Positions 28,350 to 34,419 of a stretch of DNA of 47,607 bases are shown one piece after another. A model generated the notes under the pieces. The model did no database searches. It had not been told where the DNA came from and saw only the letters and a list, made by a program, of their open reading frames with translations. The position numbers were made by a program, and so were the translations under genes. How positions within the stretch are numbered: the first letter of the stretch is position 1; the number at the start of each line of letters is the position of its first letter. Source of the DNA: Thermococcaceae archaeon (GTDB taxonomy: Archaea; Methanobacteriota_B; Thermococci; Thermococcales; Thermococcaceae); assembly GCA_030156945.1 (NCBI GenBank), contig JASGLT010000012.1, forward strand, positions 1-47,607, given 5' to 3'.

Positions 28350-28440
28350 TTTTTAAACCGCTCCCTCAACTTACCTCCGGAACTCATGAGGCCTCCCCGA
28401 AAACGGCGGGTTTCCCGCCCGAGGGGGCCGAGGTTCGAAA
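28350..28440 (+). ncRNA. Candidate structured RNA upstream of EF-1alpha
   Basis: A TATA element, TTTTTAAA (28350-28357), predicts a transcript beginning near 28379. There follows a GC-rich region that folds strongly: an inner hairpin CGGCGGG-TTT-CCCGCCCG inside an outer stem pairing GGCCTCCCC with GAGGGGGCC, one mismatch. It ends just before the EF-1alpha TATA element at 28442. It could be a small non-coding RNA or a long-leader element of EF-1alpha. No C/D or H/ACA boxes were found. Confidence 0.4.
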
Positions 28441-28441
28441 G

Positions 28442-28473
28442 ATTTAAAAAGCCATCCTAGTCAATCGGACTAG
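28442..28473 (+). promoter_or_regulatory. EF-1alpha promoter with inverted repeat
   Basis: TATA element ATTTAAAAA (28442-28450) lies 48-56 bp before the ATG. Directly after it is the inverted repeat CTAGTC-AATCG-GACTAG (28457-28473), which ends near the expected start site (about 28471). The leader then has a strong GGAGGTG ribosome site. Confidence 0.55.
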
Positions 28474-28497
28474 ACCAAAATACGGAGGTGTTTGAAA

Positions 28498-34308: not shown

Positions 34309-34366
34309 TGCGGATGACGACCCTTGCCCAGTCTGAGCAGTGATGACGTCGGTATTAGCTGACGCG
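34309..34366 (+). ncRNA. C/D box guide RNA (2'-O-methylation)
   Basis: Canonical archaeal architecture: box C ATGACGA (34314-34320, one mismatch), guide CCCTTGCCCAGT, D' CTGA (34333-34336), 3-nt spacer, perfect C' GTGATGA (34340-34346), guide CGTCGGTATTAG and D CTGA (34359-34362). Flanking GCG and CGC form the terminal stem. Both guides are 12 nt, as usual. The rule of five predicts methylation of G in ACUGGGCAAGGG and U in CUAAUACCGACG in some rRNA or tRNA. L7Ae, Nop5 and fibrillarin would be partners. Confidence 0.85.
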
Positions 34367-34419
34367 GGGCAGGGAGGTTCGCGGGCCGATGATCTGCCCC
34401 ATAAAAGGGAGGGAATAGA

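Follow-up and report, generated by a model that had tools for sequence, protein, structure and literature searches.

Introduction

The question raised by this locus is why a small guide RNA lies directly ahead of the gene for the nuclease Cas4, and whether the leader between them serves the RNA, the gene or both. In the window (the whole stretch of 47,607 nucleotides of Thermococcaceae DNA that was analysed), a C/D box sRNA was found to be followed by a hairpin with a kink-turn signature and then by cas4, all on the same strand (Table 1). The boxes, the complementarity to target rRNA, the promoter-like box, the linkage to cas4 and the kink-turn signature are seen in the sequence itself. The reading favoured here, to which a probability of roughly one half is given, is that guides and kink-turn stand on one transcript with cas4 and that a leader bound by L7Ae would couple the translation of cas4 to the C/D machinery.

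Table 1. Features of the sRNA-cas4 region, in positions of the window
Feature	Position	Strand	Basis or remark
TATA-like box TTTAAA	34281..34286	+	ends 24 nt before G34310
C/D box guide sRNA	34310..34365	+	RF00095 match, box order
Terminal stem, 5′ half GCG	34310-34312	+	sequence
Box C ATGACGA	34314..34320	+	one mismatch to RTGATGA
D′ guide CCCTTGCCCAGT, 12 nt	34321..34332	+	predicted target in 16S rRNA, Gm at nt 450 of L032 (E. coli G505)
Box D′ CTGA	34333..34336	+	sequence
D′-C′ spacer, 3 nt	between 34336 and 34340	+	
Box C′ GTGATGA	34340..34346	+	sequence
D guide CGTCGGTATTAG, 12 nt	34347..34358	+	predicted target in 16S rRNA, Um at nt 479 of L032 (E. coli U534)
Box D CTGA	34359..34362	+	sequence
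Terminal stem, 3′ half CGC	34363-34365	+	
Hairpin with kink-turn signature	34366..34400	+	fold, alignments, covariation, model R1
Shine-Dalgarno-like GGGAGGG	34407..34413	+	by eye
cas4, 211 aa	34420..35055	+	TIGR00372 97.3 bits, cut-off 65; PF12705 29.4 bits, cut-off 22

Structure and class of the guide RNA

The first-pass annotation had described a canonical C/D box guide RNA with the boxes C, D′, C′ and D in order, 12-nt guides between them and a terminal stem, and all of these elements were located in the sequence, the box C with a single mismatch. The region was found to match the Rfam family RF00095 (snoPyro_CD) with 47.6 bits, just above the gathering cut-off of 45, and to share with the archaeal C/D sRNAs of that family the box order, the length of the guides, the 3-nt D′-C′ spacer and the terminal stem. 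The description therefore stands, the RNA being a double-guide C/D sRNA that is conserved across relatives. The nearest model of a single sRNA, sR12 (RF01147), was rejected as its identity; the window's sRNA differs from it in the guides and scored 34.7 bits, below the cut-off of 38, and two sRNAs of relatives were found to exceed that cut-off on their boxes.

A query of 131 bases recovered the sRNA locus in 35 of 61 genomes, and in all the 30 loci aligned from these the two guides and the four boxes were retained with few changes. The conservation of the guides was taken from these 30 loci and not from the sRNA alignment A2 (26 of 41 distinct sequences), because the pattern by which A2 was gathered fixes the guide cores. 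The conserved block reaches 34400, past the end of the interval first annotated. The predicted guide function is an ordinary one, of a known class, and is well supported.

Predicted targets in helix 18 of 16S rRNA

Archaeal 16S and 23S models gave no match in the window's own assembly, so the rRNA of relatives was used for the target tests. The D′ guide was found to form ten of ten consecutive Watson-Crick pairs with CUGGGCAAGG of the relatives' 16S rRNA and the D guide ten of ten pairs (one of them G-U) with UAAUACCGGC, in both cases at guide positions 2-11, so that in the rRNA of relatives the complementarity lies at the D-box-proximal guide positions, as in C/D sRNAs. The targets lie in helix 18 (the 530 loop, in the decoding centre of the ribosome), one on each side and 29 nt apart, and the arrangement was identical in all five of the relatives' 16S genes. 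After shuffling, both guides matched somewhere in 16S or 23S rRNA in 24 of 20,000 pairs, and in none of these within 60 nt of each other. The search for guide targets in rRNA that had been suggested earlier was thus successful for both guides, and the bases predicted earlier to be methylated, G for the D′ guide and U for the D guide, agree with the targets found. The 12-nt target strings as literally written out at that time do not occur, the real matches being the ten consecutive pairs at guide positions 2-11.

The methylated base is set by the fifth-nucleotide rule of C/D guides, which predicts the G at nt 450 and the U at nt 479 of the 16S gene L032. The former was numbered G505 by counting back 29 nt without gaps from the latter, and this register was checked against the E. 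coli 16S sequence. The latter was numbered U534 because the second target contains GUAAUA, which corresponds to E. coli G530 to A535 by the equivalences given in the relevant part of PMC4644070. The sRNA is accordingly predicted to direct Gm505 and Um534 (E. coli numbering). The same part of PMC4644070 describes archaeal helix 18 as a hot spot for predicted methylation and gives Tte sR114, Iho sR21, Pca sR28 and Sac sR115 as double guides on it. The guides of these four sRNAs, like those of the window's sRNA, are aimed at the 530 loop, but the sites predicted for them there are E. coli A535 and G515 in place of U534 and G505.

Promoter-like box and probable transcript

A promoter of its own had been claimed for the sRNA, and the promoter-like TTTAAA upstream of it was found to be conserved in relatives: 58 of 79 distinct upstream regions contained an exact TTTAAA at a suitable distance, compared with 1.3% after shuffling. 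In P. furiosus, transcription starts 23 bp downstream of the last A of the TATA box according to the portion of PMC6640164 concerned, and this spacing would put the start on the first nucleotide of the sRNA or beside it. No TATA-like box was seen by eye in the interval between the sRNA and cas4 of the window, so the two are likely to share one transcript. An intrinsic terminator at the hairpin was set aside by eye, as no T run follows 34400.

Archaeal C/D genes often adjoin other genes without a promoter of their own, and in reporters the transcription of a gene fell when a C/D gene overlapped its 5′ end, as summarised in sections of a review (PMC7994747). If the effect described there extends to this locus, the arrangement may hold cas4 low even without a kink-turn.

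Linkage of the sRNA to cas4

The gene following the leader was identified as cas4 on a score that exceeds the NCBIfam equivalog cut-off (TIGR00372, 97.3 against 65 bits). Relatives of this Cas4 were found in 91 of the 94 family genomes and in all 74 of those with completeness of at least 90% and contamination of at most 5%. Cas1 was present in 72 of the 94 and in 60 of the 74 good-quality genomes, and the universality of Cas4 beside this lower figure hints at a role apart from spacer acquisition.

The sRNA model R2 was found to match in 90 of the 115 class genomes, all of them within the window's family. Two weak sRNA matches (G002 and G109) were removed before linkage was counted, and in 85 of the resulting 88 genomes the sRNA directly preceded a cas4 of the same orientation, at a distance of 9-81 nt from the first Cas4 residue in the match; the three exceptions are all three genomes of the genus g11. 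The place of the sRNA ahead of cas4 is nearly fixed across five genera.

In the genome G011, which is probably that of T. kodakarensis KOD1 as judged by the agreement of its rRNA coordinates with those in PMC9014305, the sRNA was found at 58,302-58,357 on the minus strand, and if the genome is KOD1, this sRNA is absent from the circular RNAs in Table 1 of PMC9014305. Within the open-licence literature without supplements, no paper was found that joins Cas4 to a C/D sRNA or to a kink-turn in a leader. A catalogue of Pyrococcus sRNAs dates from 2000 (Gaspin et al., as reported in part of a review), and the window's sRNA may well be listed already in published catalogues or their supplements.

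The kink-turn hairpin

The 35-nt tail was found to fold with a lower stem and a short upper stem, between which a tandem GA faces a three-base bulge together with another GA. A kink-turn consists of tandem GA/AG pairs beside a three-base bulge between two stems, and each of these parts was found here, the upper stem being short with two secure pairs. This definition is in line with the passages on kink-turns in PMC3124441 and PMC5539422.

The hairpin model R1, searched with strict filters that can lose weak matches, was found to match once in each of 56 of the 94 family genomes; these belong without exception to the window's genus, which has 61 genomes, and in all 56 the hairpin lay directly between the sRNA and cas4. 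Of the five genomes of the genus that were missed, G083 contained both sRNA and cas4 but lacked the hairpin, G017 and G087 gave no cas4 match, and G002 and G025 contained fragments of cas4 only. In 28 leaders of the linked genera g12, g13, g14 and g15, inspected by eye, the sRNA was followed by a spacer without the kink-turn hairpin, so neither the sRNA nor cas4 depends on the hairpin. In 48 distinct leaders, the hairpin was found to begin 3-5 nt beyond box D (at 4 nt in 45 leaders), and its end preceded the Shine-Dalgarno core by 2-7 nt and the likely start codon by 15-19 nt; the kink-turn thus lies near the ribosome-binding site, as in a leader controlled by L7Ae.

The alignment A1, composed of 30 hairpins chosen by the sRNA pattern alone, was found to contain invariant GA pairs (both), an invariant upper GG/CC and invariant bulge bases 2 and 3 (A and U), and the first bulge base, the pair adjoining the GAs and the loop were variable. 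Across 54 distinct leaders the bulge was GAT in 47, AAT in three, TAT in three and CAT in one. A further hairpin of the genus (L113), with one upper-stem base altered and GA/GA retained, failed the pattern used for the alignment A3 and stands outside it. Because the pattern used to select the A3 leaders required the GA and upper-stem bases, A3 is uninformative on the invariance of these bases, which was therefore taken from A1.

Over nine pairs in 31 distinct hairpins of A3, 98.2% of the cells were standard pairs, three stem pairs were found to change on both sides and none of 500 shuffles reached the covariation score, in an alignment that by our choice omits the pair adjoining the GAs and the upper U-G pairs and whose related sequences can exceed shuffles without structure. 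When the three weaker pairs were included, the covariation of A1 was not significant (104 of 500 shuffles reached the score), and its share of paired cells was equalled in 352 of 500 shuffles. A kink-turn hairpin of such geometry with a 7-bp lower stem occurs once in the window, against a Markov expectation of 0.067 per strand. The hairpin alone was mildly stable against shuffles (z -1.74) and the folding energy of the whole leader was unremarkable (z -0.23), so the case for the hairpin rests on comparison. Of 54 naked leaders, only 15 preserved five or more base pairs of the hairpin in the minimum-energy fold, and the fold of the window's leader favours another pairing over it.

As separate observations, some of the g13 leaders (L145, L148, L152 and L153) were found to contain CCTTTAAAATTTAGGGGG just before cas4; L145 folds into a hairpin in which the Shine-Dalgarno bases would be masked. 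Outside the cas4 leader, the 14-mer GGCCCTATGAGCCG was met repeatedly among the family genomes listed, in many of them.

Proposed mechanism and alternative readings

Under the favoured reading, a single promoter would give a transcript that starts at the first base of the sRNA and continues into cas4. The sRNA would be trimmed out and would then bind L7Ae, Nop5 and fibrillarin, and its two guides would clamp both sides of the 530 loop of 16S rRNA, leading to Gm505 and Um534. The kink-turn hairpin immediately ahead of the ribosome-binding site of cas4 in the window's genus would form a second L7Ae site, through which L7Ae free of C/D particles would repress the translation of cas4; the hairpin may also protect the 5′ end left after removal of the sRNA. 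Co-transcription, methylation, L7Ae binding and translational control are what we infer from the features described.

The main rival to this mechanism, a plausible though not a probable one, is that the hairpin serves the sRNA and not cas4, by marking or protecting the 3′ end of the sRNA (in processing, as a block to exonuclease or through partial termination), with cas4 supplying no more than a transcribed place. The chief evidence for it, and against an L7Ae leader, comes from the genus g11 (L159, L160 and L161), in which the sRNA is unlinked from cas4 and yet a GC-rich hairpin of 10-11 bp follows box D at a near-equal distance; that plain hairpin may serve the sRNA itself. The nearly fixed distance from box D to the hairpin in the window's genus points the same way, but the end of the hairpin there also keeps a narrow distance from the Shine-Dalgarno core. 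The g11 hairpins, moreover, were found without the GA/GA bases, and in the 28 leaders of g12 to g15 the sRNA has no such hairpin and so does not need it.

It is quite unlikely that only the guide RNA matters and that linkage and hairpin are passively inherited, with no regulation either way. That archaeal C/D genes are often found beside other genes and lack their own promoter (PMC7994747, in the sections cited above) would favour such inheritance, but the hairpin is present in 56 of 61 genomes with three stem pairs changed on both sides.

A switch, in which the D′ guide would pair with the 5′ strand of the hairpin and open it when the sRNA is outside its particle, was considered for the window, where the pairing of CCUUGCCC with GGGCAGGG reaches -15.7 kcal/mol and is used in the minimum-energy fold of the leader. 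It was rejected as not conserved and is very improbable, since only 7 of 54 leaders had four or more base pairs between the strand and the guide in the fold, and in five leaders with U for C in the stem (L023, L043, L103, L109 and L154) the hairpin stays and the guide match is only -7.1 to -8.8 kcal/mol. A cis-regulatory role, in which the sRNA element would imitate a guide without acting as one, is a possibility raised generally for some snoRNA calls in 5′ UTRs of T. kodakarensis in part of PMC4247193. It is hardly credible here, as the guide cores were retained in 30 of 30 aligned loci and fit helix 18, and as in g11 the sRNA occurs without linkage to cas4.

Relation of the proposed L7Ae leader to known systems

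The proposed control of cas4 by L7Ae has precedents. Control of kink-turn leaders by L7Ae has been reported, including that of the T. kodakarensis l7ae leader in a reporter, in the part of PMC5539422 consulted. The l7ae leader and the nop5 mRNA described there contain a kink-turn in the leader or at the start of the message, as the cas4 leader is predicted to, that of l7ae near the Shine-Dalgarno sequence; in the present case, by contrast, the gene is cas4, the kink-turn comes after a C/D sRNA and the L7Ae site is a predicted one. The P. abyssi RNAs sRkB, sRkC and sRk52, which bind L7Ae in vitro, are likewise Thermococcales RNAs with a K-turn or K-loop, sRkB being at a gene start, but they come from repetitive loci, are 130-343 nt long and have no adjoining C/D sRNA described in the corresponding part of PMC3124441. 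A map of T. kodakarensis contains 11 snoRNAs in 5′ UTRs, and its authors propose that some K-turn regions may be cis-regulatory (PMC4247193, in the part seen); the portion of the main text covered does not name the window's sRNA.

The placement in five genera, with the kink-turn in one, suggests that ribosome modification and a nuclease of defence or repair may share one transcript. If L7Ae binds the hairpin, cas4 would join, as a clear case, the small set of archaeal messages believed to be regulated by L7Ae. A composite leader, in which the methylation guide and the separate L7Ae kink-turn act jointly and the supply of C/D parts sets the output of a stand-alone Cas4, is a more doubtful proposal; if it were true, the state of ribosome building would set the level of a Cas4 nuclease that is kept even where no cas1 is detected.

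Other RNA genes

In the genome G083, which lacks the kink-turn hairpin, a tRNA was found directly upstream of the sRNA (L119, 73-210). Two g12 genomes (L126, 176-343; L127, 222-389) were found to contain the HgcF H/ACA RNA (RF00058) upstream of the sRNA on the opposite strand. In the window, the SscA RNA (RF00063) was found at 28379-28474 with 92.3 bits.
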